DNA of 29,554 bases, taken from IMG/VR virus record IMGVR_UViG_3300032334_002061, positions 1-29,554 of that record, one strand, 5' to 3'. The stretch comes from a virus. Every line of letters starts with the position of its first letter. Position 1 is the first letter of the stretch. This document shows, one piece after another, positions 1,720-29,114 of this stretch. A program made the translations under genes and the position numbers. Below the pieces are notes generated by a model that was given only the letters and a program-made list of their open reading frames with translations, made no database searches and was not told the origin of the DNA.

Positions 1720-2380
1720 ATGTAAATATTGTGATAAAGGATTTGTATCAGAACGAACATTGGCTGTTCATCTGTGCGAACCTGCACGACGAGACCGACA
1801 ACGCAATGAAACTGGTGTACAGTTTGGTTATAGAATCTGGGTGCGTTTTATTCAACGCAACACAAACAAAAAAACACTGACTTATGAAGAATTTGCTGCT
1901 AGCCCATTCTATTCGGCTTTTGTAAAATTTGGGCAATACCTAATACAAATACAATGTGTTAATGTAGAAGAATACAGTGAATACATCATTAACTCTAAAA
2001 TCAAGCTAGATCATTGGTGCAAAGATCAACACTATACAGCTTGGTTGGTGAACTATATCAAACACGAGTCAGCCACGAAGGCTCTAGAACGCAGCATAAA
2101 AAGCATGACGGCATGGGCAGAAGAACACAATACTGACTTTAATTGTTATTTTTTAAAAACTACCACTGCTTATGTAGTCAAAGACATTATCAATGGTCGC
2201 ATTAGCCCGTGGGTAATATATCAAAGCCATGGCGGTAAAGAGTTTTTAACTAAAATCAACGAAGAGCAGTTGGGATTAATTTTTAATTTTATCGATCCAA
2301 TTTGGTGGACCAGTAGGTTCAGTAACCTTAATGAAGATACTGAATTTGTAAAAGAAATTTGTGATAACGGAAAGGTATAA
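1703..2380 (+). CDS. Zinc-finger phage protein of unknown function
   Basis: Product of about 225 residues from a TTG start at 1703, which follows GAGA and gives MTNLVKCKYCDKGF; TTG 1712 is an alternative. An ATG at 1649 is also in frame but would overlap the preceding gene by 71 bases. The N-terminus has a CxxC...H...C arrangement (CKYCDKGFVSERTLAVHLC, about residues 7-25) typical of a single zinc finger, followed by a basic stretch PARRDRQR that could contact nucleic acid. The remainder is mostly helical and rich in Trp and Tyr. The gene overlaps the clamp-loader-like gene at its start and the DnaE-like gene at its end (TAATG), so the three are probably translated as a set. Function is unknown. 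Confidence 0.75.
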   Translation: MTNLVKCKYCDKGFVSERTLAVHLCEPARRDRQRNETGVQFGYRIWVRFIQRNTNKKTLTYEEFAASPFYSAFVKFGQYLIQIQCVNVEEYSEYIINSKIKLDHWCKDQHYTAWLVNYIKHESATKALERSIKSMTAWAEEHNTDFNCYFLKTTTAYVVKDIINGRISPWVIYQSHGGKEFLTKINEEQLGLIFNFIDPIWWTSRFSNLNEDTEFVKEICDNGKV

Positions 2381-2976
2381 TGGATATTGATTTAGATTTT
2401 GGAGACCGAGACCAAGTACTGTCAAAAATAAAATACATACCCGCAGCAATAATGCGAGAAGGTAAATTATCCAAGCACGTTAGTGGTGTATATGTCAATG
2501 ATATGCCTGTTAATTCACTAAGCAATACAGCAGCGATTGATTACATCACAGCAGAAAATTTAGGATACGTTAAAATTGATTTATTGAATGTGGGCTTATA
2601 CAAACAAATTACCAGCCCCGAACAGTTGGATCAACTAATGTCGCAAGAGCCAGATTGGAGTAGATTACAAGACCCTACATTCTTTGGTCAGTTAATACAC
2701 ATTGGTAAGCATTACAGCACTATGAAAAGAATGCCTGAGCCTATCGACAGCGTGGTTAAGTTGGCAATGTTTTTAGCAATTATTAGACCTGCTAAAAGAC
2801 ATTTAATAGGATTGCCTTGGAAACAAGTAGCTAAAACAGTGTGGGAAAAATCCAGCGATGGTACTTATGCGTTTAAGCAGGCTCACGGAATTTCTTACGC
2901 CCACCTAGTGCTGGTTAACATGAATTTATTAGATTTTTCGAACAAGGAAAACACTACGCCGTTTACTCTTTTGTAA
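2380..2976 (+). CDS. Miniature DnaE-like (family C DNA polymerase) protein
   Basis: Product of 198 residues, starting at ATG 2380 within TAATG. It begins with DIDLDFGDRDQVL, matching the palm motif of bacterial polymerase III alpha (PDxDxDF...R), so D4 and D6 align with E. coli D401 and D403. The segment KHVSGVYV (32-39) matches the DnaE KHAGGVVI region. NLGYVKIDLLNV (60-71) matches the third catalytic aspartate region (D67, E. coli D555). IIRPAKRHL resembles the fingers RPG segment, and FKQAHGISYAHL resembles the DnaE FNKSHAAAYA stretch. The PHP, tau-binding and clamp-binding regions are absent; the whole is about one sixth of DnaE. It could be a minimal catalytic core, a regulator or a scaffold. 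The motif matches are direct observations; activity is unknown. Confidence 0.7.
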   Translation: MDIDLDFGDRDQVLSKIKYIPAAIMREGKLSKHVSGVYVNDMPVNSLSNTAAIDYITAENLGYVKIDLLNVGLYKQITSPEQLDQLMSQEPDWSRLQDPTFFGQLIHIGKHYSTMKRMPEPIDSVVKLAMFLAIIRPAKRHLIGLPWKQVAKTVWEKSSDGTYAFKQAHGISYAHLVLVNMNLLDFSNKENTTPFTLL

Positions 2977-3300
2977 GCTAATTTCTTTGAGACTTACATA
3001 AGGTCCTTGTATTATTTCAACATTTTTACTGTTGAGATTTTTCAATGTAGGCTTAAATATATACCAATCGGATTTGAGAAACAAATTAATTGGTATTTGT
3101 CTGTTGCTGGTCCACCACCACATGTCCCCAAGCTCTAAAAACTTTAGCCTTTGATCGGCAGATACACTTTCAAAATCATAAAATGATGTTATTGACTCGT
3201 CTCGGTTTTGTATTATTCCTAAATATTCTCGATTAACATAAGACAGATAGGTTAAAAAAGGACATTGGTCTAAGAGATTTTTTCTTTCTTCTGGTGCCAT
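2929..3300 (-). CDS. Conserved-type phage protein, minus strand, unknown function
   Basis: Product of 123 residues on the strand opposite to its neighbours. I regard it as real. It fills an otherwise empty 350-base stretch, and its composition is protein-like: an aromatic cluster LGDMWWWTSNRQIPINLFL near residues 57-75, a YLGIIQN segment, and a basic end KSKRRSVFLVRKI. This WWW-SNR-IPIN pattern is familiar from small proteins of T4-like marine phages, none with a known role. The 3' ends of this gene and the DnaE-like gene overlap by 48 bases in antisense. No membrane segment is seen. Virion or regulatory roles are equally possible. Confidence 0.7.
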   Translation of the reverse strand: MAPEERKNLLDQCPFLTYLSYVNREYLGIIQNRDESITSFYDFESVSADQRLKFLELGDMWWWTSNRQIPINLFLKSDWYIFKPTLKNLNSKNVEIIQGPYVSLKEISLQKSKRRSVFLVRKI

Positions 3301-4083: not shown

Positions 4084-5064
4084 ATGCAAAGCATTGAACA
4101 AGTTATTCGCATACACTTACCTCGAATCAAATCCTCAAGCGAATGGCTAAGTCATGACGCAGTATGCTGTTATCACCGTGGTGAATCTCGTGATCAACGT
4201 GGACGCGGCGGTGTAAAATTTAGTCTTGACGGAACCATTGGCGTTAATTGTTTTAATTGTGGTTTTAGCACAGCCTGGCGCCCAGGGCAATTACTAGGGT
4301 TTAAATTTAAAAAATGGTTATCCTGGCTAGGAGTTGAATCAAACATAATATCTGCTCTTACTTTATGGTGTTTAGATCAACGCAACGATGCTGTAATACA
4401 AGAAGAGTTAGCTAAACGAGTTGTTGATATTAAGCGGTATAAGCTACCGCAAACTGCTGTGCACATCAATGAGTGCAATGACACCGCTGTAAAAAATTAT
4501 TTAATTGATAGGGCAATAGACATTGATCGCTACGATTTTTATTGGAGCCCAGATCGTACATTTGATCTCGGCAACAGAGTGATTGTACCTTTTTACTATA
4601 GGCGAGAAGTAGTAGGATTTACTGCAAGAGCAATTAGGGCTAATAAACTCAAATACTACATGCAAGCTGATGCAGGAAACGTGGTATTTAATTTGGACAG
4701 ACAACACTATGATAGAAAGGTAGTAGTGGTTGCAGAAGGGCCGTTTGATGCAATGAGTATAGATTGTGTAGCGGTCATGCATAATGCCATAAGTAATACA
4801 CAGGCTCAGCTGATACACGACTTACATAAAAAAACTATTGTGGTGCCTGATGGTGATGCAGCAGGCAGTAAACTAATTAATTCAGCACTAGAGTATGAAT
4901 TTGCAGTTTCCTTTCCTAATTTCTTAGAAACTTGTAAGGACATCAATGAAGCTGTGATAAAATACGGGCGCGTTTATGTGCTAAAAGACATCTTAGAGCA
5001 CAGTGAATCAAACCCAACAAAAATTCGGTTATTGGCCAAAAAATTTCAACTAAGATTTAAATGA
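4084..5064 (+). CDS. DNA primase (T4 gp61-like)
   Basis: Product of 326 residues, close to the 342 of T4 gp61. The N-terminus carries a zinc-ribbon (CCYHRGES at about 23-30, then NCFNCGF near 53-59), as in DnaG-type primases. A TOPRIM domain follows: AEGPFDAMS near residue 218 contains the catalytic glutamate, and VVPDGDAAGS near 253-262 has the DxD-type metal site. It synthesises RNA primers on the lagging strand with the hexameric helicase encoded next, and the two genes overlap by 4 bases (ATGA). The start at 4084 is forced by an in-frame stop immediately upstream. Expression is probably early from the adjacent sigma70-type promoter. Confidence 0.9.
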   Translation: MQSIEQVIRIHLPRIKSSSEWLSHDAVCCYHRGESRDQRGRGGVKFSLDGTIGVNCFNCGFSTAWRPGQLLGFKFKKWLSWLGVESNIISALTLWCLDQRNDAVIQEELAKRVVDIKRYKLPQTAVHINECNDTAVKNYLIDRAIDIDRYDFYWSPDRTFDLGNRVIVPFYYRREVVGFTARAIRANKLKYYMQADAGNVVFNLDRQHYDRKVVVVAEGPFDAMSIDCVAVMHNAISNTQAQLIHDLHKKTIVVPDGDAAGSKLINSALEYEFAVSFPNFLETCKDINEAVIKYGRVYVLKDILEHSESNPTKIRLLAKKFQLRFK

Positions 5065-6476
5065 CAGATTATAATTCAGAAGTACAAAAATTGTTTTTAG
5101 AATTCATGCTCAGTAATGCAGAGAATTATGTGCGTGTTCAAAACATTTATAATTTTGAAAATTTTGACCGTAACCTACGTTCGGCAGCTAAGTTCATAAA
5201 AGATCACGCTGACCAATACAAAACATTACCAGACTTAAAACAAATACACGCAGTAACAGGTACTGCGTTAACATTAGTTGCTGACATTAAGTCGGAGCAT
5301 GATGATTGGTTTTTAGATGAGTTTGAAAAATTTACCAAACAAAAAGAACTTGAGCGAGCAATACTGTCGGCCGCTGATCTCATTGGCAAAGGAGATTTTG
5401 AACCTGTAGAAAAACTAATCAAAGACGCAGTACAAATTAGTTTAACCAAAGACATGGGTACAAATTACTTTGCTGATCCTAAGCAACGGTTACTGGCATT
5501 GAAACAAAACAATGGACAAATTAGCACTGGCTGGGCTAGCTTAGATCAAATTCTCTACGGTGGAATGAAAAAAGGCGAGCTGAATATTTTTAGTGGTGGA
5601 TCTGGCTCGGGTAAAAGTCTAATCATGATGAATTTAGCTATTAATTGGGTATTGGCTGGATTGTCGGGAGTTTATCTAACACTAGAGCTTAGTGAAAACT
5701 TGTGCTGCCAACGTGCTGACAGCATGATCACAGGCATTGCTAATAAAAATATTTTTCGTGAAATAGACGATGTTGAACTAAAAGTCAAATTAGCAGCTAG
5801 AAGAGCAGGCGAGTTTAGAGTTAAATATTTTCCTGCACAAAGCACAGTAAACGCATTTAAAAGTTATGTGCGCGAATTAAGTATTCAGCAAGGTTTTAAA
5901 CCTGATTTTATCATTATTGATTACTTGGACTTGATGATGCCAGCCAGTGTTAAAATTGACCCTACTAATACTTTTATCAAAGACAAGTATGTAAGCGAAG
6001 AATTGCGTAACTTAGCTGAAGAGACAAGAACTGTGGTAGTAACAGGTTCGCAACTTAATCGAGGCGCGACAGAAGAAATCGAATTTGATCACAGTCACAT
6101 TGCTGGTGGCATTAGTAAGATTTTTACAGCAGACAATGTGTTTGGCATCTTTACTAGTAGAGCCATGCGCGAACGTGGGCGATATCAGATACAAGCAATG
6201 AAAACTCGCAGCAGTAGCGGTGTTGGACAGAAGATTGATTTAGGTTATGATATTGATACGCTGAGAATTATTAATCTAAGCGAAAGCGAACTATCGCAAC
6301 TAAAAAATGAAAGTCCAGTAGATAGTGTTCTTAAAAATCTCAAACCAATAGTTAACATAAAACCGGGTGCAGTAACTAAACCTGCTGCAGCGGAACAACC
6401 AAAGATTACTGCTGAAGCACAGAGCGCTTCGTTAGCTAATATGTTGAATCAATTGAGAGCTGGTACGGATAAATAA
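5061..6476 (+). CDS. Replicative DNA helicase (DnaB/T4 gp41-like)
   Basis: Product of 471 residues, the expected length for gp41 (475 in T4). The N-terminal 150 residues are helical as in DnaB-family helicases. The RecA-type core has Walker A GGSGSGKS at about 179-186, Walker B FIIIDYLDLMMP, and later the SQLNR motif H3-type glutamine. It unwinds duplex DNA 5' to 3' as a hexamer on the lagging-strand template and binds the primase. Its start overlaps the primase stop by 4 bases, so the two subunits are co-translated. The C-terminal tail is Pro/Ala-rich and probably flexible. Unlike some phage gp41 genes, it carries no intein. Confidence 0.93.
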   Translation: MTDYNSEVQKLFLEFMLSNAENYVRVQNIYNFENFDRNLRSAAKFIKDHADQYKTLPDLKQIHAVTGTALTLVADIKSEHDDWFLDEFEKFTKQKELERAILSAADLIGKGDFEPVEKLIKDAVQISLTKDMGTNYFADPKQRLLALKQNNGQISTGWASLDQILYGGMKKGELNIFSGGSGSGKSLIMMNLAINWVLAGLSGVYLTLELSENLCCQRADSMITGIANKNIFREIDDVELKVKLAARRAGEFRVKYFPAQSTVNAFKSYVRELSIQQGFKPDFIIIDYLDLMMPASVKIDPTNTFIKDKYVSEELRNLAEETRTVVVTGSQLNRGATEEIEFDHSHIAGGISKIFTADNVFGIFTSRAMRERGRYQIQAMKTRSSSGVGQKIDLGYDIDTLRIINLSESELSQLKNESPVDSVLKNLKPIVNIKPGAVTKPAAAEQPKITAEAQSASLANMLNQLRAGTDK

Positions 6477-14423: not shown

Positions 14424-14621
14424 TCATATTAAAAAACGATATATATCAAATGCAAAAAAATTTAAAATACTCATACAATCAACAATTCTTGAAAGTAAAT
14501 ATTCAACGAATCATAAAAATTTCTCCGTGAGAAATAACTAAAGCATAAAAAAACAAAATTTAATCTTAGCTGAGTTCTAAGCAGAGTGTCTGTACCTCGA
14601 AAAATTATAAAGGATGTAAAA
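14424..14621 (+). other. nrdA leader region with hairpins and a possible promoter
   Basis: This AT-rich gap has no gene. A possible sigma70 promoter is TTGAAA (14489-14494), 17 bases, CATAAA (14512-14517); a TAAATA also lies at 14496. A perfect 7-bp hairpin (ATTTCTC-CGT-GAGAAAT, 14519-14535) follows, without a U-tract on this strand but with one on the other. A second stem, CTTAG/CTAAG (14565-14581, 7-base loop), lies 40 bases before the nrdA start. Confidence 0.4.
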
Positions 14622-15839
14622 ATGGTAAAAATTGATGTAACTAGAGATGAATTATTTTCCGAACAAGGTTTAGATTTACTAAACAAGTATTATTCAGATG
14701 GCAAAGAAGGGGTACAGCGAGCAATAGCACGAGCGGCAATAGCATTCAGTTACGGCGACAAAGAACTGGCACAATTCATTTATGACGCAGCAAGTCAGCA
14801 TCATTTTTTCTACTCTAGTCCTATTTTATCAAATGCACCTGAGGGTCAGTGGGATCCTAATGTAGACTACACCAGTAAAGAATTTTGGGCACCTGAAAAT
14901 AGCGAGGCGCGCCGTTGTGCTTGGTTAGGCGCAAAACCCAAAGCATTGCCAATTAGTTGCTTCTTAGGTTATGTTGAAGACACCATCTCTGGACAAATTT
15001 CCAGCAGCAGCGAACTAGCGCTACTAAGTGTTGCAGGTGGCGGGACAGCACTGCACAACGGCATTCGTGCTGTAAGTGACAAAGCACCTGGCCCTATTCC
15101 CTACATCAAAACCATTGACGGGATCATGGGCTATTATAGGCAAGGCAAGACTCGCCGCGGCAGTTGTGCTGTATACATGGACATTGATCATCCTGACATA
15201 CTAGAATTTATTAAAATGCGTACTCCATCGGGCGGAGATACAGCTCGTAAAATTACTAACCGCAAAGGTGTACACAACGCAGTAAACATCACAAAAGAAT
15301 TTATTACAGCAGTTAACGAAAACAAACTTTTTGATCTACGTTGCCCTCATGGTGGAGATGTGCGCGACAGCGTACCTGCCCGTGAACTATGGGAAACCAT
15401 TCTAGAAACCCGCGAACTCACAGGCGAGCCTTATATTTGGCTCAAGGACAATGCCAATGCTGCACTACCTGAAGCGCAAAAGAAACTAGGACTAACCAAC
15501 CGTGGCAGTAACCTGTGTTTAACTGGCGACACTTTGATTGAAATTTCTGTTCATCCAATAACAGGTAATGTTGTTAAACTTCCACTAGCAGATTTCATTG
15601 AAAAATGGGATCTAGGATATTATGATACTGTGTATGTTAAAACCATCAAGGATGGGCAACTGCATTGGGCACAAATTACTGCTGCTGGAAAAACTGGAGA
15701 CGTTACAGAACTTATCGAAATCGAAACTCCTAGCGGTAAAAAAATAACCTGCACTCCCGAACATAAGATTTTTACTAAAAATCGTGGGTGGGTAGAAGCC
15801 CAACATTTAGTAGAAAGCGATGAGCTATTGGAGGAGTAG
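14622..15839 (+). CDS. nrdA: Ribonucleotide reductase large subunit N-part fused to split-intein N-half
   Basis: Of the 405 residues, the first 298 are the NrdA N-extein and the last 107 (from 15516) are an intein N-fragment. ATG 14622 is chosen for its AAAGGA-type ribosome binding site; GTG 14586 is less likely. The reductase part begins without an ATP-cone, has C113 (in PISCFLGY) equivalent to E. coli C225, and stops exactly after GSNL. The intein half starts CLTGDTLIEI (block A) and has block B GKKITCTPEHKIFTKN with the TxxH motif, then ends at a TAG at 15837. Class Ia reductase makes dNDPs for phage DNA synthesis. The protein must be joined by trans-splicing to the 16837 product. Boundaries are clear from the motifs. 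Confidence 0.93.
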   Translation: MVKIDVTRDELFSEQGLDLLNKYYSDGKEGVQRAIARAAIAFSYGDKELAQFIYDAASQHHFFYSSPILSNAPEGQWDPNVDYTSKEFWAPENSEARRCAWLGAKPKALPISCFLGYVEDTISGQISSSSELALLSVAGGGTALHNGIRAVSDKAPGPIPYIKTIDGIMGYYRQGKTRRGSCAVYMDIDHPDILEFIKMRTPSGGDTARKITNRKGVHNAVNITKEFITAVNENKLFDLRCPHGGDVRDSVPARELWETILETRELTGEPYIWLKDNANAALPEAQKKLGLTNRGSNLCLTGDTLIEISVHPITGNVVKLPLADFIEKWDLGYYDTVYVKTIKDGQLHWAQITAAGKTGDVTELIEIETPSGKKITCTPEHKIFTKNRGWVEAQHLVESDELLEE

Positions 15840-15854
15840 TTTGGTGTTATGAAA

Positions 15855-15898
15855 TTTGGTTCCTTACTGGTAAATAAAATAGACAGTAAGGAACCAAA
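15855..15898 (+). promoter_or_regulatory. Perfect 15-bp hairpin with late promoter in its loop, masking the RBS
   Basis: TTTGGTTCCTTACTG (15855-15869) and CAGTAAGGAACCAAA (15884-15898) are exact inverted copies separated by 14 bases. The loop contains GTAAATA (15870-15876), a T4 late-type element. The right arm contains AAGGA, the ribosome binding site for the endonuclease ATG at 15899. Read-through RNA from upstream would hide this site; RNA starting at about 15882 would lack the left arm and expose it. This is an inference from the sequence, matching the known control of T4 I-TevI and some T4 late genes. Confidence 0.8.
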
Positions 15899-16840
15899 AT
15901 GGATTACAAGCAACTTTATAAAAATATGATTCAACTCGCAAGGCAAGAAGATAGAAAAAAACACTGTGGGATATATTATGAATTACATCACATTGTTCCA
16001 GAGTTTATGTTTAAAAATAGAAGAAGAACTGGGCCAAAAGGGCACCTTGAAGGTAATCCTGAATCTAAAGATAATAAAATTTTGTTAACATTTAAAGAAC
16101 ATCTCCTTGCTCATTATTATCTTTATGAAATATATAAAGGAACTCGGTATGAGTACTCTGCTGGTTCAGCTTTACAGTTTTTCTTTACTAAGGCAGGTAA
16201 TAACCATATAAGGCAAGTTGAATTATCAAAAGTTGACGAAAATTTTCTTGAAGAAATGGAATATCTAAGAAAAATAGGCATTGATAGTATTTCTCAGGCA
16301 AGGAAAGGAAAAATGCCTGTAGTTGATGCTGTTACCAGAGAAAAAATTGGTTCGGTTCCTGTGGATCATCCACGAGTAAAGTCTGGAGAATGGGTGCATC
16401 ATTCATCGGGTAAAAAAATTACTGAATCAGCTAGAAGTAATAAAAAATCACAACATAAAGAAAATAATAATAACTATAAACCCCTAACTGCTGAGTTAGA
16501 GTCTAAAATTTTTGAGTGTATAACAAGAGCAATCGAAGATGATATGTTGGTTAGGAATGTGTTTGTAAAAAATATCAAAGAATCAATCACTGAGTTTAAA
16601 AAAATATCGCATGTATGGATTAATAACCGTTACGGTAGCATACAAAACCTAGTAGATTTGTATAATAAAAAATTTGACACTAATATTAAATTTAATCCGT
16701 ATTACAGATCAAAAGCACAAAGATCTGCCCTTAGAGATCGATCGTCAATCTATATGTGGGTTACAAACGGCGAAACCAATTTAAGAATTTTTAAAAGTGA
16801 AGAGATACCAAATGGATTTAAAAAAGGAAGAATATTATGA
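15899..16840 (+). CDS. HNH homing endonuclease, free-standing inside the split intein
   Basis: Product of 313 residues, starting at ATG 15899 directly after the masked ribosome binding site. An HNH nuclease signature lies near residues 28-75: ELHHIVPEF with paired histidines, then DNKILLTFKEHLLAH with Asn and His. A region VDHPRVKSGEWVHHSSGKK and the C-terminal motif WVTNGETNLRIF...IPNGFKKGR are typical of DNA-recognition tails of phage HNH and GIY-YIG homing enzymes. It probably cleaves intein-less nrdA to spread the split intein. The codon and base use is more AT-rich than the flanking nrdA exteins, a sign of separate origin. Its stop overlaps the ATG of the next gene (ATGA). Confidence 0.85.
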   Translation: MDYKQLYKNMIQLARQEDRKKHCGIYYELHHIVPEFMFKNRRRTGPKGHLEGNPESKDNKILLTFKEHLLAHYYLYEIYKGTRYEYSAGSALQFFFTKAGNNHIRQVELSKVDENFLEEMEYLRKIGIDSISQARKGKMPVVDAVTREKIGSVPVDHPRVKSGEWVHHSSGKKITESARSNKKSQHKENNNNYKPLTAELESKIFECITRAIEDDMLVRNVFVKNIKESITEFKKISHVWINNRYGSIQNLVDLYNKKFDTNIKFNPYYRSKAQRSALRDRSSIYMWVTNGETNLRIFKSEEIPNGFKKGRIL

Positions 16841-17889
16841 TAAAAATTACTAGAATCAAAGTTGAAAAAACTCCAGTATACGACATTACAGTACCCGAAA
16901 CTGAAAGTTTTTTTGCTAACAATGTATTGGTTCATAACTGCAGTGAAATTAGCCTTAGTACCAACTCTGAACGTACTGCTGTGTGCTGTCTTAGCAGCGT
17001 TAATTTAGAACGTTATGAAGAATGGAAGGACACAGGTCTAGTTGCTAAACTTACACGATTTTTAGATAATGTTATCCAATGGTTTATTGATTGGAGTCCA
17101 GCTGAACTACAAAAAACTCGTTTTAGCGCTCAACAAGAACGTGCCCTTGGTATTGGTGCAATGGGTTGGCACAACTTTCTAATGAGCAAAAACATTCCTT
17201 TTGAGGGTGGTGGGTTTGGTAGCGCTACTCAATGGAATCACATTATTTTTTCTCGTATGCACGAAGAAGCAGTAGCTGAATCCAAGCGTCTAGCTACTGA
17301 GCGCGGAGAAAGCCCTGACATGGTTGGTACCGGGCGCCGAAATAGTCATTTGTTTGCTATTGCTCCTAACGCCAATAGTTCAATCCTATGTAATACTACT
17401 CCTAGCATTGAGCCTATGGCCAGTAACGCATACACACAAAAAACACGAAATGGCATTTTTCAAGTGCGTAATCGCTACTTAGAACCCGTGCTAGAAAAAT
17501 ACGGCACTAATACGCCAGAAACATGGAAAAACATTGAAAAAAACAACGGTTCTGTGCAACATTTGGTTGAATTATCGCCAGAAGAAAAAGAAGTGTTCAA
17601 GACTGCGTGGGAGATTGATCAGCATTGGTTAATTGAACACGCAGAAGCTCGTCAACAGTATATTTGCCAAAGTCAAAGTCTAAACTTGTTTTTCTTACCC
17701 GGAACCGAGCGCGCCTACATCAACAGTGTGCATCTAAAAGCTATTCGTAGTAGTAGTCTAAAGAGCTTGTATTATTTTAAAACAGGTGCTAAAATAGCAG
17801 CTGACACAATTAAAAAAATGCAACGAGTTAAACTAGAAGATTGGAAAGAATCTTCTGAGTCAGAAACTTGTGTTGCTTGCGAAGGATAA
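16837..17889 (+). CDS. nrdA: Split-intein C-half fused to NrdA C-part
   Basis: Product of 350 residues: the first 34 are an intein C-fragment, and the C-extein of 316 residues begins at Cys codon 16939. The intein half has block F VYDITVPETESFF and block G NNVLVHN, with the penultimate His and terminal Asn needed for splicing. The extein begins CSEI: after splicing, NLCSE restores the active-site N297-x-C299-x-E301 (E. coli N437, C439, E441). C314 (AVCCLS) corresponds to C462, SLYYFKTG to the Y730/Y731 pair, and the tail ends TCVACEG with the redox cysteines. The spliced enzyme would be 614 residues. It is translationally coupled to the endonuclease gene by ATGA overlap. Confidence 0.93.
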   Translation: MIKITRIKVEKTPVYDITVPETESFFANNVLVHNCSEISLSTNSERTAVCCLSSVNLERYEEWKDTGLVAKLTRFLDNVIQWFIDWSPAELQKTRFSAQQERALGIGAMGWHNFLMSKNIPFEGGGFGSATQWNHIIFSRMHEEAVAESKRLATERGESPDMVGTGRRNSHLFAIAPNANSSILCNTTPSIEPMASNAYTQKTRNGIFQVRNRYLEPVLEKYGTNTPETWKNIEKNNGSVQHLVELSPEEKEVFKTAWEIDQHWLIEHAEARQQYICQSQSLNLFFLPGTERAYINSVHLKAIRSSSLKSLYYFKTGAKIAADTIKKMQRVKLEDWKESSESETCVACEG

Positions 17890-21902: not shown

Positions 21903-23069
21903 ATGTCTGAAACTACACCCTCTCAATGTAATTTTTGTGGGAAAAATCATGACCAAGTGGTGAAACTAATAGTTTCATCAACTGCTGCAATTTGCAATGA
22001 GTGTATTTCATTGTGCACAGATATTCTAAGTAAACAAAGCAAAACTAAACCACAAGAAGAATTTGATCTAAATCCTCAAGCAATTTATAACTATATAGAC
22101 AAGTATGTAATTTCTCAGCGTTATGCTAAAGAAAAATTAGCGGTTTCGGTAATAAATCACTACAAAAGATGCATGTTTGACGACAAAAACCAAGTAGAAA
22201 AAACTAATATACTGTTTTGGGGACCAACTGGCACAGGAAAAACTCTACTGGCCAAAACCATTGCTGATTATTTGGGCGTGCCTTTTGTGATTATTGACGC
22301 CACTACTATTACCGAAGCTGGGTATGTAGGAAACGATGTCGATATAATTATTGACAAATTATACCATGCTTCTGAGTTTGATGTGGATCAAACTGAACGT
22401 GGAATAGTGTTTATCGACGAAGTTGATAAAATTGCTAGATCATCTGAAACTCCTTCAACCGGCAAAGACATCAACGGCGAAGGTGTACAACAAGCATTGC
22501 TTAAAATGGTAGAAGGTACTACTATTAAATTGTCAAGCCCTAAAAAAGTATTTGGTACTGACTCGGTAGAAATTAACACAGGTAAAATACTATTTGTAGC
22601 ATCAGGTGCCTTTGTTGGGTTAGATGAGCTAGCTAAAAAACGTCGAAGCAGTGCAGGTATAGGATTTGGAAGCTCAAACTTGTTGCCGACGCAATCAAGG
22701 TTTCCTGCAGATCCGGTTGATTTTATTAAGTTTGGAATGATTCCCGAATTCATGGGTCGCTTTCCTTCTATTGTTCATACAGAGCAACTCACAATAGATG
22801 ATTTGTTTGAAGTAATAAAAAACAAAAACAACGGTATATTAGAACAGTACAAATTTTATTTTGGCGCTAGCGCAATCGAATTAGAAATTGATGACGACGG
22901 ATTAAAAGCAATTGCAGAACATGCAATAAAAATAAAGTTAGGCGCTCGTGGATTAAGATCAATATTTGAAATAATTACTCATGACTATCTTTTTAATATT
23001 GGTAAATTAATAGAGCAGGATACCAAAAAATTAAAACTAACAAGAGAGGATGTAATAAAATATCTATGA
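21903..23069 (+). CDS. clpX: ClpX-like AAA+ unfoldase
   Basis: Product of 388 residues (E. coli ClpX 424). The N-terminal zinc-binding domain has C9, C12, C31 and C34. Walker A is GPTGTGKT near 107-114 and Walker B is IVFIDEVDK. The pore-1 loop GYVG follows TEA, and the sensor-2 GARGLRS is present. An AGIGFG stretch near 251-256 matches the IGF loop that docks on ClpP, so the protein can probably recruit the host protease. The RKH loop region, which in E. coli helps recognise ssrA tags, is replaced by SSPKKVFG, suggesting altered substrate choice. Its stop overlaps the start of the bS21 gene (ATGA). Confidence 0.95.
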   Translation: MSETTPSQCNFCGKNHDQVVKLIVSSTAAICNECISLCTDILSKQSKTKPQEEFDLNPQAIYNYIDKYVISQRYAKEKLAVSVINHYKRCMFDDKNQVEKTNILFWGPTGTGKTLLAKTIADYLGVPFVIIDATTITEAGYVGNDVDIIIDKLYHASEFDVDQTERGIVFIDEVDKIARSSETPSTGKDINGEGVQQALLKMVEGTTIKLSSPKKVFGTDSVEINTGKILFVASGAFVGLDELAKKRRSSAGIGFGSSNLLPTQSRFPADPVDFIKFGMIPEFMGRFPSIVHTEQLTIDDLFEVIKNKNNGILEQYKFYFGASAIELEIDDDGLKAIAEHAIKIKLGARGLRSIFEIITHDYLFNIGKLIEQDTKKLKLTREDVIKYL

Positions 23070-23398: not shown

Positions 23399-23851
23399 AT
23401 GACTACATATACACTTCAGGGTTTTGACTTACCCACACTACATCGTAAATTTATTGGCTTTGATCCACTGTTTGAAGATCTAACACGAGCCTTTCACAAC
23501 AAAAACGATAACTATCCCCCGTACAACATTGTACGAGTTGACGAAAGTCGTTTTGTTATTGAAATAGCAATCGCTGGTTTTCAGGAAAGCGAGCTAGACG
23601 TATCACTAACCAACCGTATCTTAAACATCACCGGTAAGCGTCGCATTGATGCAACTGCTAGCGAGAAAGAATACCTACATCGTGGTATTAGCAGCCGTGA
23701 TTTTGAGCGTACATTCACACTTGGTGAGCATATGGAAGTCGTTGGTGCATCTGTAAAAAATGGCATCCTAACAGTTACATTGGATCAGCAGATTCCAGAC
23801 GAAGCCAAAACTCGCCGTATTGCTATCAGTTCAGAAAGCACTAGCGGTTGA
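23399..23851 (+). CDS. Small heat-shock protein (Hsp20/IbpA-type)
   Basis: Product of 150 residues with an AAGGAG ribosome binding site. The N-terminal segment has FDPLFEDLTRAF, as in IbpA. The alpha-crystallin domain is at about 42-135: YNIVRVDESRFVIEIAIAGF, then ILNITGKRR, and ASVKNGILTVTL near its end. A short Ser/Thr tail follows. It would hold unfolded proteins for refolding by DnaK. The gene has a strong dual promoter and a leader like that of dnaK, so the two may be co-regulated. Phage-encoded Hsp20 is known from T4-like cyanophages. Confidence 0.93.
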   Translation: MTTYTLQGFDLPTLHRKFIGFDPLFEDLTRAFHNKNDNYPPYNIVRVDESRFVIEIAIAGFQESELDVSLTNRILNITGKRRIDATASEKEYLHRGISSRDFERTFTLGEHMEVVGASVKNGILTVTLDQQIPDEAKTRRIAISSESTSG

Positions 23852-23923: not shown

Positions 23924-24235
23924 ATGACTGCTAACGAAACTGATGTTGCTCAAAAAACAAAAACACGCAAGTTATTAAAAGAACCACCAAAATACAAAGT
24001 CATTTATCTTAATGATGATGTTACTACAGTAGAATTTGTAGTTGAAACTCTGGTGCAAATTTTTAATTACGATCGCCACGATGCTGAAAATAAAGCAATG
24101 GAAATAAACCAAAATGGAAGCGGTATTGTAGCTGTACTGCCTTATGAAATTGCTGAACAAAAAGGTATTGAAGTTACTATGCTAGCAAGGAATAACAATT
24201 TTCCATTGCAAGTTCGAATTGAACCAGATTTATAA
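23924..24235 (+). CDS. clpS: ClpS-like protease adaptor
   Basis: Product of 103 residues. The core YKVIYLNDDVTTVEFVVETL near 24-43 matches ClpS, including the NDD segment that binds N-degron alpha-amino groups. The end PLQVRIEPDL also fits. E. coli H66, which contacts the N-terminal amine, appears here as Asn (in EINQNGSGI). ClpS normally delivers N-end-rule substrates to ClpAP, but no clpA gene is visible, so it may use the host enzyme. It has no strong ribosome binding site but follows a mini-ORF. Confidence 0.9.
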   Translation: MTANETDVAQKTKTRKLLKEPPKYKVIYLNDDVTTVEFVVETLVQIFNYDRHDAENKAMEINQNGSGIVAVLPYEIAEQKGIEVTMLARNNNFPLQVRIEPDL

Positions 24236-24236
24236 A

Positions 24237-24416
24237 ATGGAAAAAGAAAAAACTGTTAGAGAACAAATCGACCAATTATTATGGTTTCACGGAATAACAG
24301 AGAAAGTTGAGATCGAAACAGAAGTAGAGGATATAATTTTAACTCAACTCAAAGACGAAAAACTTAATAGAGTATGGGTCGAAGATGGTTCGTTGGTGAT
24401 AGACTTTAACGACTAA
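24237..24416 (+). CDS. Small acidic phage protein
   Basis: Product of 59 residues, starting at ATG 24237 one base after the clpS stop, with no ribosome binding site, hence possibly coupled. A TTG start at 24219 is an alternative. Acidic; no known motif; TVREQIDQLLWFHGIT near 6-21 looks helical. Its end overlaps the opposite-strand J-protein gene by 4 bases. Confidence 0.5.
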   Translation: MEKEKTVREQIDQLLWFHGITEKVEIETEVEDIILTQLKDEKLNRVWVEDGSLVIDFND

Positions 24417-25000
24417 GGTTGGGGATGTCCTAACATCAAGTTCCATGACATGGAACCATAATGATAATCGTTTAATATTTCTAACATAAGATTAAATACT
24501 GTCATTCGTCGAGTAAACATTGCTAAATCGTTTTGTCTACGTTCAATTAGATTCTCAACAAAGTTCTTTAGTAAATTTTCTCCATTATGTGTTTTTAACT
24601 GTATTCTGTCTCGAGCAATAACAGCATTGCGAATGTTAGTTCGACAGCGTTCCATGTCTGCTTCTAGTGTACGAGATGCTTGATTAATATCTGCTTGCAT
24701 TTTAACAATTAAATCTTCTACCTCACTGTTCAAATCAGGTACATATTGATTAACCATGTTAGAAAGTCGACCCAGTGCTTCGCTTCGAATACTATTGTCT
24801 TGATTAATCTTGCCAGTAGCATCATATTCTTGACGTCGTTCGGGATCACTAAGTACTTCGTAAGCTAGGTTTATTCGTTTGAATTTTTCTGCATCGCCCC
24901 CTCTATCGGGATGATGTAGATGTGCTAGTACGCGGTATTGTTGTTTAATTTGTTCTTGGGTACATCCAGGAGCAAGTTCGAGTTCTTGATATAAATTCAT
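24413..25000 (-). CDS. J-domain co-chaperone (DnaJ-type, class C)
   Basis: Product of 195 residues on the minus strand. The first 65 residues are a J-domain: MNLYQELELAPGCTQEQIKQ, the HPD motif in HHPDRGGD near 29-36, then AYEVLSDPERRQEYD. The remainder is helical and charged, without the Gly/Phe-rich, zinc-finger or substrate-binding regions of classic DnaJ. It would stimulate the ATPase of DnaK, encoded about 2.2 kb away, or the host DnaK. A late-type element TAAATA lies directly upstream (25012-25007), with little or no leader. Confidence 0.9.
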   Translation of the reverse strand: MNLYQELELAPGCTQEQIKQQYRVLAHLHHPDRGGDAEKFKRINLAYEVLSDPERRQEYDATGKINQDNSIRSEALGRLSNMVNQYVPDLNSEVEDLIVKMQADINQASRTLEADMERCRTNIRNAVIARDRIQLKTHNGENLLKNFVENLIERRQNDLAMFTRRMTVFNLMLEILNDYHYGSMSWNLMLGHPQP

Positions 25001-27200: not shown

Positions 27201-29114
27201 ATGAGTCGAGTAATCGGTATTGACCTTGGTACCACTAACAGTTGCGTAGCCATTGTAGAAGGTGGAGTAGCTAAGGTAATCGAAAACAGCGAAGGTGCTC
27301 GCACTACACCTAGCATTGTTGCTTACGCTAAAGATGAAATCCTAGTAGGTGCATCGGCCAAGCGTCAAGCAGTAACAAACCCTAAAAACACTATCTATGC
27401 TGCCAAGCGTCTAATTGGACGTCGCTTCGAAGAAGAAGCAGTGCAGAAAGATATTAAACTTATGCCCTATTCTATTGTTCGTGCTGACAATGGCGACGCT
27501 TGGGTACAAGTTAATGAAGAAAAACTAGCACCTCCGCAGATTTCAGCCGAAGTACTGCGTAAAATGAAACAGACTGCAGAAGATTATCTTGGACATGACG
27601 TTACACAAGCAGTAATTACTGTTCCGGCTTATTTTAACGACAGTCAACGTCAAGCTACTAAAGACGCTGGTAAGATTGCAGGACTAGAAGTACTGCGTAT
27701 TATCAATGAGCCAACTGCTGCTGCACTAGCATATGGTGTAGACAAGTCAGACAAGCGTGATCGCAAGATTGCTGTGTATGACTTAGGTGGTGGTACATTT
27801 GACATCAGCATCATCGAAATTGCTAACGTAGATGGCGACAAGCAGATTGAAGTGCTTTCAACCAATGGTGACACATTCCTAGGTGGCGAGGACTTTGACC
27901 AGCGCATTATGGACTATCTAGTTGACGAGTTTAAGAAAGAGCAAGGTATTGATCTTAAAAACGACGTACTAGCACTACAACGTCTAAAGGATGCTGCAGA
28001 AAAAGCAAAGATTGAGCTAAGTAACTCTGGTCAAACAGAAGTCAATCTGCCTTACGTTACTGCCGATGCGTCTGGTCCTAAGCACTTGGTAGTTAAACTA
28101 TCTCGTGCTAAGTTGGAAGACATGGTCGATGATCTTATTGAGCGTAGTTTAGCACCATGCCGTCAAGCTATGGCTGATGCTAAGGTTACTGCCGCAGACA
28201 TCGATGAGGTTATCTTAGTAGGTGGTCAAACACGCATGCCTAAGGTACAGGCTGCAGTTGAGTCATTATTTGGTAAAACTCCGCGTAAAGATGTTAATCC
28301 CGACGAGGCGGTTGCTGCTGGTGCTGCTGTACAGGGTGCTGTACTAAGTGGTGATCGCAATGACGTTCTTCTACTTGACGTTACTCCATTAAGCCTAGGA
28401 ATTGAAACACTAGGCGGTGTAATGACCAAGTTGATTCAAAAGAACTCAACTATCCCGACCAAAGCTAACCAAACCTTTAGTACCGCAGATGATAATCAGC
28501 CTGCTGTTACTATCAAAGTTTACCAAGGTGAGCGTGAGTTTGTTCGCTATAATAAACTACTTGGCGAGTTTACGCTTGGTGATATTCCGCCTGCACCACG
28601 CGGACAACCACAAATTGAAGTTCAATTGGACATTGATGCCAATGGTATTCTCAGTGTTAGTGCTAAAGACAAAAACACTGGTAAAGAAAACAAAATTACC
28701 ATTAAAGCTAACAGTGGTTTGAGCGATGCCGAAATTGCACAAATGGTCAAAGAAGCTGAGGAAAATGCTGAATCAGATAAAAAAGAGCGTGAACTAGTTG
28801 ATGCTCGTAACAATGCTGAAAGCACACTAAACGGTATGCGTAAAGAATTTGCTAAGTACAGCGAAAAAATGGAAGACGCAGATCGTACTAAATTTGAAGA
28901 TGCAATGAAAGCTGTAGAAACAGCTATCGCAGGAGATGATCCTAAAGCAATTCAAGACAGCATTCCACCACTGTACGAAGCTAGTAACCCGCTTTATAAA
29001 ATTAAGACAGAAGCGGAAAAGCCTGCTGAAGCACCAGCTGAAGGTGCAGCCCAAACAGAATCAACTGCAGCAGATCCAAATGTTGTAGACGCTGAATTTA
29101 AAGAAACCAAATAA
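27201..29114 (+). CDS. dnaK: Hsp70 chaperone DnaK
   Basis: Product of 637 residues, full length (E. coli 638). The nucleotide-binding domain has [14 protein letters not shown] at the start (phosphate-1 loop), [24 protein letters not shown] (phosphate-2) and [11 protein letters not shown] (adenosine motif). The linker [19 protein letters not shown] leads into the substrate-binding domain with GIPPAPRG-type sequence (here [14 protein letters not shown]). A helical lid follows, and the tail ends [11 protein letters not shown], as in bacterial DnaK. It refolds proteins with DnaJ and GrpE; no GrpE gene is seen in the window. The sequence resembles betaproteobacterial DnaK (GDAWV, KLAPPQ), suggesting host origin. 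A strong terminator follows. Confidence 0.98.

Follow-up and report, generated by a model that had tools for sequence, protein, structure and literature searches.

How much of a DNA polymerase can be held in 198 residues is the question raised by the open reading frame at positions 2380-2976 (plus strand) of IMG/VR record IMGVR_UViG_3300032334_002061, an environmental phage sequence analysed over its whole length of 29,554 nucleotides (the window). A sequence-only reading had described its product as a mini-DnaE with all three catalytic aspartates of the family C DNA polymerases. Upon inspection, the reading frame proved real in both sequence and translation, with the coordinates and every motif that had been quoted present. 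At a probability of roughly 0.8, we consider the protein (phrog_11778) to be the C-terminal half of a minimal family C polymerase made of two chains, contributing the end of the palm (D2, D4 and D67) and a reduced base of the fingers to a core that it forms together with a separately encoded N-terminal half; we refer to the two as the C-half and the N-half. The basis in hand consists of homology, the tiling of both chains on DnaE, co-occurrence of the two genes, conserved catalytic residues, replisome context and purifying selection, and literature searches found no biochemical study of the split enzyme.

Relationship of the window protein to DnaE and PolC

The window protein matches PHROG 11778 ("DNA polymerase") with an E-value of 1.8e-52 over residues 1-185 and has no Pfam match; the Pol III finger domain PF17657 passes the Pfam cut-off by itself in two C-halves, the XacN1 and CM1 homologues. 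Homologues were found by tblastn in 63 phage records, nearly all of large T4-related phages (RaK2, 121Q, CBB and GAP32 types, PA5oct types, and Atu_ph07, Phosso, XacN1, SCTP-2 and CM1), and at least 591 stretches in IMG/VR carry relatives. Because phmmer and hmmsearch comparisons of the C-half with the PDB gave no significant DnaE match, we utilized profile-profile and structural comparison. The C-half family aligned to the DnaE profile in hhalign at 7e-5, versus 0.14-0.84 for reversed or shuffled DnaE controls. For the AlphaFold2 model, built from 65 sequences (pLDDT 91.3, pTM 0.79), the top nine Foldseek rows were all Pol III alpha (E 2.8e-3 to 0.25), and the top 11 VIA-align rows were all family C, with Z scores of 6.0-8.9 and the first unrelated row at 3.7. 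The best of these were PolC (3f2b, 8.9), Taq (3e0d, 8.9), Mycobacterium tuberculosis (5lew, 8.6) and Escherichia coli (2hnh, 8.2), aligned over 182-195 residues with an rmsd of 4.7-5.5 Å. The window protein is thus related to the DnaE/PolC polymerases and has, in its predicted structure, a family C palm fold; the evidence for this homology comes from the profile-profile and structural comparisons and from the pairing of the two genes in genomes, and the kinship first read from the motifs is borne out by the PHROG match, the controlled profile comparison and the superposition.

As in bacterial DnaE and PolC, the motifs DxDxD, GLVKxD, RPGP and NKSHxxxY follow each other in the same order on the same predicted fold. 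The chain starts at the catalytic strand itself, MDIDLDF (2380-2400; this and the following motifs on the plus strand), which is also the break point of the split, with D2 and D4 equivalent to E. coli D401 and D403. Structural alignment places residue 1 of the model at Taq 462 and PolC 972, with the E. coli start at about 401. We take the family C catalytic pair to be D401/D403 in E. coli, D463/D465 in Taq and D973/D975 in PolC; given where the alignment starts, D2 and D4 form this pair and D6 corresponds to E. coli D405. The original assignment of D4, D6 and D67 as catalytic was therefore right for D67 and displaced by two residues for the pair. KIDLL (2572-2586) provides K65 and D67, the equivalents of E. 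coli K553 and D555, while I135-K139 within AIIRPAKRH (2782-2796) is equivalent to the DnaE fingers motif LFRPGP and F165-Y173, FKQAHGISY (2872-2898), to DnaE FNKSHSAAY. Ten residues (D2, D4, D6, H33, K65, D67, R136, P137, H169 and Y173) are invariant in family alignments of both 16 and 65 sequences, so that the expected conservation of the aspartates holds and D2, D4 and D67 are all invariant and aligned to catalytic positions.

The chain is strongly truncated relative to DnaE, as a decaying remnant that has lost its function would be. We give this explanation almost no weight and rejected it on the dN/dS of approximately 0.03-0.15 among close relatives, which denotes purifying selection; the invariance of the active-site residues across hosts and habitats and the conserved gene order also speak against decay. 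What has gone is substantial: unlike DnaE and PolC, which have the palm in one gene, the window chain has no thumb, PHP domain, clamp-binding region, OB domain or C-terminal domain and retains only a minor part of the fingers; nothing in its 198 residues corresponds to the whole thumb or to about 95 residues that separate the RPGP and NKSH motifs in DnaE. It also has no GRGS motif, and a complete palm with GRGS, a thumb and full fingers are thus not found in this one chain.

A separately encoded N-terminal half

The GRGS-bearing part of the palm is found in a partner of approximately 170-180 amino acids with an invariant GxGRGS motif. An example is CBB_328 (172 aa) of Pectobacterium phage CBB, which a 2017 paper names a truncated Pol III alpha in passages that do not pair it with CBB_287 (PMC5259590). 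Our comparison showed that the homologue of the window protein in this phage is CBB_287, annotated as "putative membrane protein", and not CBB_328. The latter is the N-half (PF07733 at 2e-8; PHROG 11127), and its C-terminus, ...GLGRGSSVSSYCLYLIGLHLVDSIKYELDVNEFLKW, falls at the point of DnaE where CBB_287 starts. The N-half family profile aligned to E. coli DnaE residues 285-393 at 5e-5, and PF07733 matches ended at profile positions 89-101 of 260, near 95, in 16 out of 16 genomes. GxGRGS is kept in all 90 N-halves examined, 68 of which end exactly 35 residues after the start of the motif.

In an AlphaFold2 model of one environmental N-half (pLDDT 90.7), residues 79-174 aligned to E. coli DnaE 278-393 (Z 10.0, rmsd 2.6); the model also aligned to residues 306-413 of the M. 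tuberculosis enzyme (Z 12.2), to Taq 296-455 and to PolC 825-965, with the next row at Z 2.1. The end of the N-half and the start of the C-half abut on all four reference enzymes (393 and 401 in E. coli, 413 and 420 in M. tuberculosis, 455 and 462 in Taq, 965 and 972 in PolC); thus, the two chains tile DnaE. In the N-half of locus L105 (5983-6504), residues 1-78 form an N-terminal stretch where DnaE has its PHP domain, the structural alignment covering residues 79-174.

The two genes also travel together. Among the matches listed, 59 of the 60 phage records with a C-half contained an N-half as well, and the sole exception, PP728206, is a partial record of 109 kb whose relatives are about 350 kb. 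All nine named genomes searched directly had one N-half each, and each of the seven environmental contigs that reach 200 kb or more held exactly one of each half, separated by tens to hundreds of kilobases. Alishewanella phage Slicko01, of 141 kb, has both on one strand approximately 11 kb apart, flanking a gp44-like clamp-loader gene. No single open reading frame was matched by both half profiles among the fetched loci, as a natural fusion would be. A search of the 29.5-kb window found no N-half; the window being a fragment, an N-half of its own phage is inferred from the relatives. All 16 relatives' genomes tested encode a family B polymerase, in keeping with the coexistence that had been proposed, and no full DnaE was found in any of the 16. 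The window phage, represented by a fragment, presumably carries an N-half and also a polymerase of family B. The family B matches fall in two separate open reading frames in Slicko01 (OQ508956.1, 3529-5033) and Agrobacterium phage Atu_ph07 (NC_042013.1, 212336-213688).

The pairing bears directly on whether the 198-residue chain could be a polymerase by itself. Its three catalytic aspartates and its confidently predicted fold might suggest so, yet the GRGS-bearing first half of the palm is missing, and a separate GRGS gene occurs in every adequately complete genome checked. Since that half is a distinct, co-maintained gene, D2, D4 and D67 alone make no active site, and we rejected a self-contained enzyme as very improbable. 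Of the mini-DnaE originally proposed, the family C relation stands and the autonomy does not.

Gene neighborhood

Both halves are tied to the replisome by their gene neighborhoods. Upstream of the C-half on the plus strand are the C-terminal part of a UvsW-like helicase (40-726), two conserved genes with no assigned function, phrog_11279 (770-1246) and phrog_11758 (1240-1719), and phrog_11058 (1649-2380), which is conserved in 99 of 102 C-half loci and encodes an N-terminal C2H2-like zinc finger; downstream on the same strand are a Toprim primase similar to T4 gp61 (4084-5064) and a DnaB-like replicative helicase similar to T4 gp41 (5061-6476). The order uvsW, phrog_11279, phrog_11758, phrog_11058, C-half, small convergent open reading frame, a further open reading frame, gp61 and gp41 is kept in most of the 102 loci, within the reach of each contig. 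The small convergent frame (2929-3300, minus strand) overlaps the 3′ end of the half-polymerase gene and is conserved in 98 loci. The N-half is flanked by two conserved small genes, each present in 77 of 80 loci, with gp44 nearby in 55 of the 80.

Two neighbors had been singled out before, along with coupled starts. The coupling is seen at position 2380, where the stop of phrog_11058 overlaps the start of the half-polymerase, and the zinc finger of phrog_11058 was confirmed. The clamp-loader likeness of the 159-residue phrog_11758 product found no support: comparison with T4 gp62 by hhalign gave an E-value of 0.23 and a probability of 0.3%, and no clamp loader was among its PDB profile matches, leaving room for remote homology at most. 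We also considered whether the zinc-finger protein could be a further piece of DnaE and discarded the idea, as profile searches recognized the zinc finger only; it is a candidate for a further partner of the half-polymerase.

Proposed assembly and function of the two chains

If the halves assemble, the initial half of the palm, including the nucleotide-binding motif GRGS, would come from the N-half, whose gene lies at another place in the phage genome and in many cases close to that of the clamp-loader ATPase gp44, and the C-half would bring the metal-binding D2, D4 and D67 with the reduced fingers. The two chains probably associate non-covalently, which would rebuild one nucleotidyltransferase active site. 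We lean slightly towards DNA-polymerase activity as such for this core. With the thumb and about 95 residues of the fingers missing, high processivity of the pair alone is unlikely, which favors an accessory role beside the family B polymerase gp43; the assembled pair may serve in gap filling, repair or bypass.

The same losses give rise to a rival explanation, in which the halves do assemble and the complex is a nucleotidyltransferase of another kind or a structural or regulatory subunit of the replisome. Consistent with this are the missing thumb and RPGP-NKSH residues, the family B polymerase already present in 16 of 16 genomes, and the Pol beta nucleotidyltransferase fold of family C palms in general (PMC7824862). 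However, K65, R136-P137, H169 and Y173 of the fingers base, at positions conserved in DnaE, are invariant, and the gene stays within the primase/helicase cluster. We regard such a non-polymerase complex as possible and the less probable outcome. Should the two chains form an enzyme, it would be a naturally occurring case of a polymerase active site divided between two chains and perhaps the most compact family C core, one that could help to determine the parts of DnaE that cannot be dispensed with. It would also bear on the reason for which giant phages retain an additional polymerase of bacterial type.

Comparison with known systems and possible origin

A polymerase of this type had seemed unexpected in such phages; it is not, since Iyer et al. 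(2021) had reported from the group 2.2 jumbo phages what they called a "phage-specific minimal version" of Pol III alpha, in which the NTP-binding N-terminal part is one protein and the C-terminal part, which binds Mg and template, is another, their genes lying far from each other (PMC7824862). They proposed that an enzyme is restored from the two parts and may work together with the family B polymerase, and they considered this minimal form as one of several possible echoes of ancient replicons (PMC7824862). The window protein is a further member of this group (PHROGs 11778 and 11127), likewise minimal and cut within the palm, with a partner presumably encoded at a distance and a family B replicase presumably alongside, and differs from the published cases in coming from an environmental contig. 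Our analysis adds the break point at the residue level, predicted structures of both halves, a count of their co-occurrence, environmental relatives in the hundreds, and the presence of both halves in a phage of 141 kb.

A second type of split was observed in Bacteroides phage BS-TP1 and its relatives, where the break in the DnaE gene falls at the position of the jumbo-phage split, immediately ahead of the DxDxD strand (locus L034, 2825-4558 and 5801-7501; loci L194-L228). Unlike the jumbo-phage halves, these parts are full-size, with PHP domain, thumb and complete fingers, and carry intein-like tails at the break: the N-part ends in FERFLLPER followed by a tail of approximately 75 residues, and the C-part, in another gene, has an intein-C-like stretch running into SLPDVDxDF. 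The Pfam search did not recognize these tails as inteins, so their intein likeness is one of resemblance only. In BS-TP1 itself, a helicase gene lies between the DnaE parts. The common break point of the jumbo-phage halves and the tailed Bacteroides-phage DnaE points to gene fracture, and by this analogy the jumbo-phage split may have arisen at a favored site rather than being primitive. The fullest version of our reading is tentative, and we would rate it less likely than not as a whole: an active polymerase, working beside the family B replicase, whose one active site is built from two polypeptides encoded at loci that lie tens to hundreds of kilobases from each other, and whose ancestral DnaE was fractured at the site seen in the Bacteroides phages.

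Other features of the window

At 14586-17889, the ribonucleotide reductase gene nrdA is broken into two open reading frames with N- and C-terminal intein parts (Pfam Intein_splicing at 1.1e-7 and 3.7e-5, both below the curated cut-off). The 313-residue open reading frame between them has no Pfam match and may encode a homing endonuclease. Further along, a full-length DnaK-like open reading frame (637 aa) and nearby DnaJ-, ClpX-, Hsp20- and ClpS-like frames were noted by eye (27201-29114, 24413-25000 on the minus strand, 21903-23069, 23399-23851 and 23924-24235); a complete phage-encoded DnaK seems unusual.
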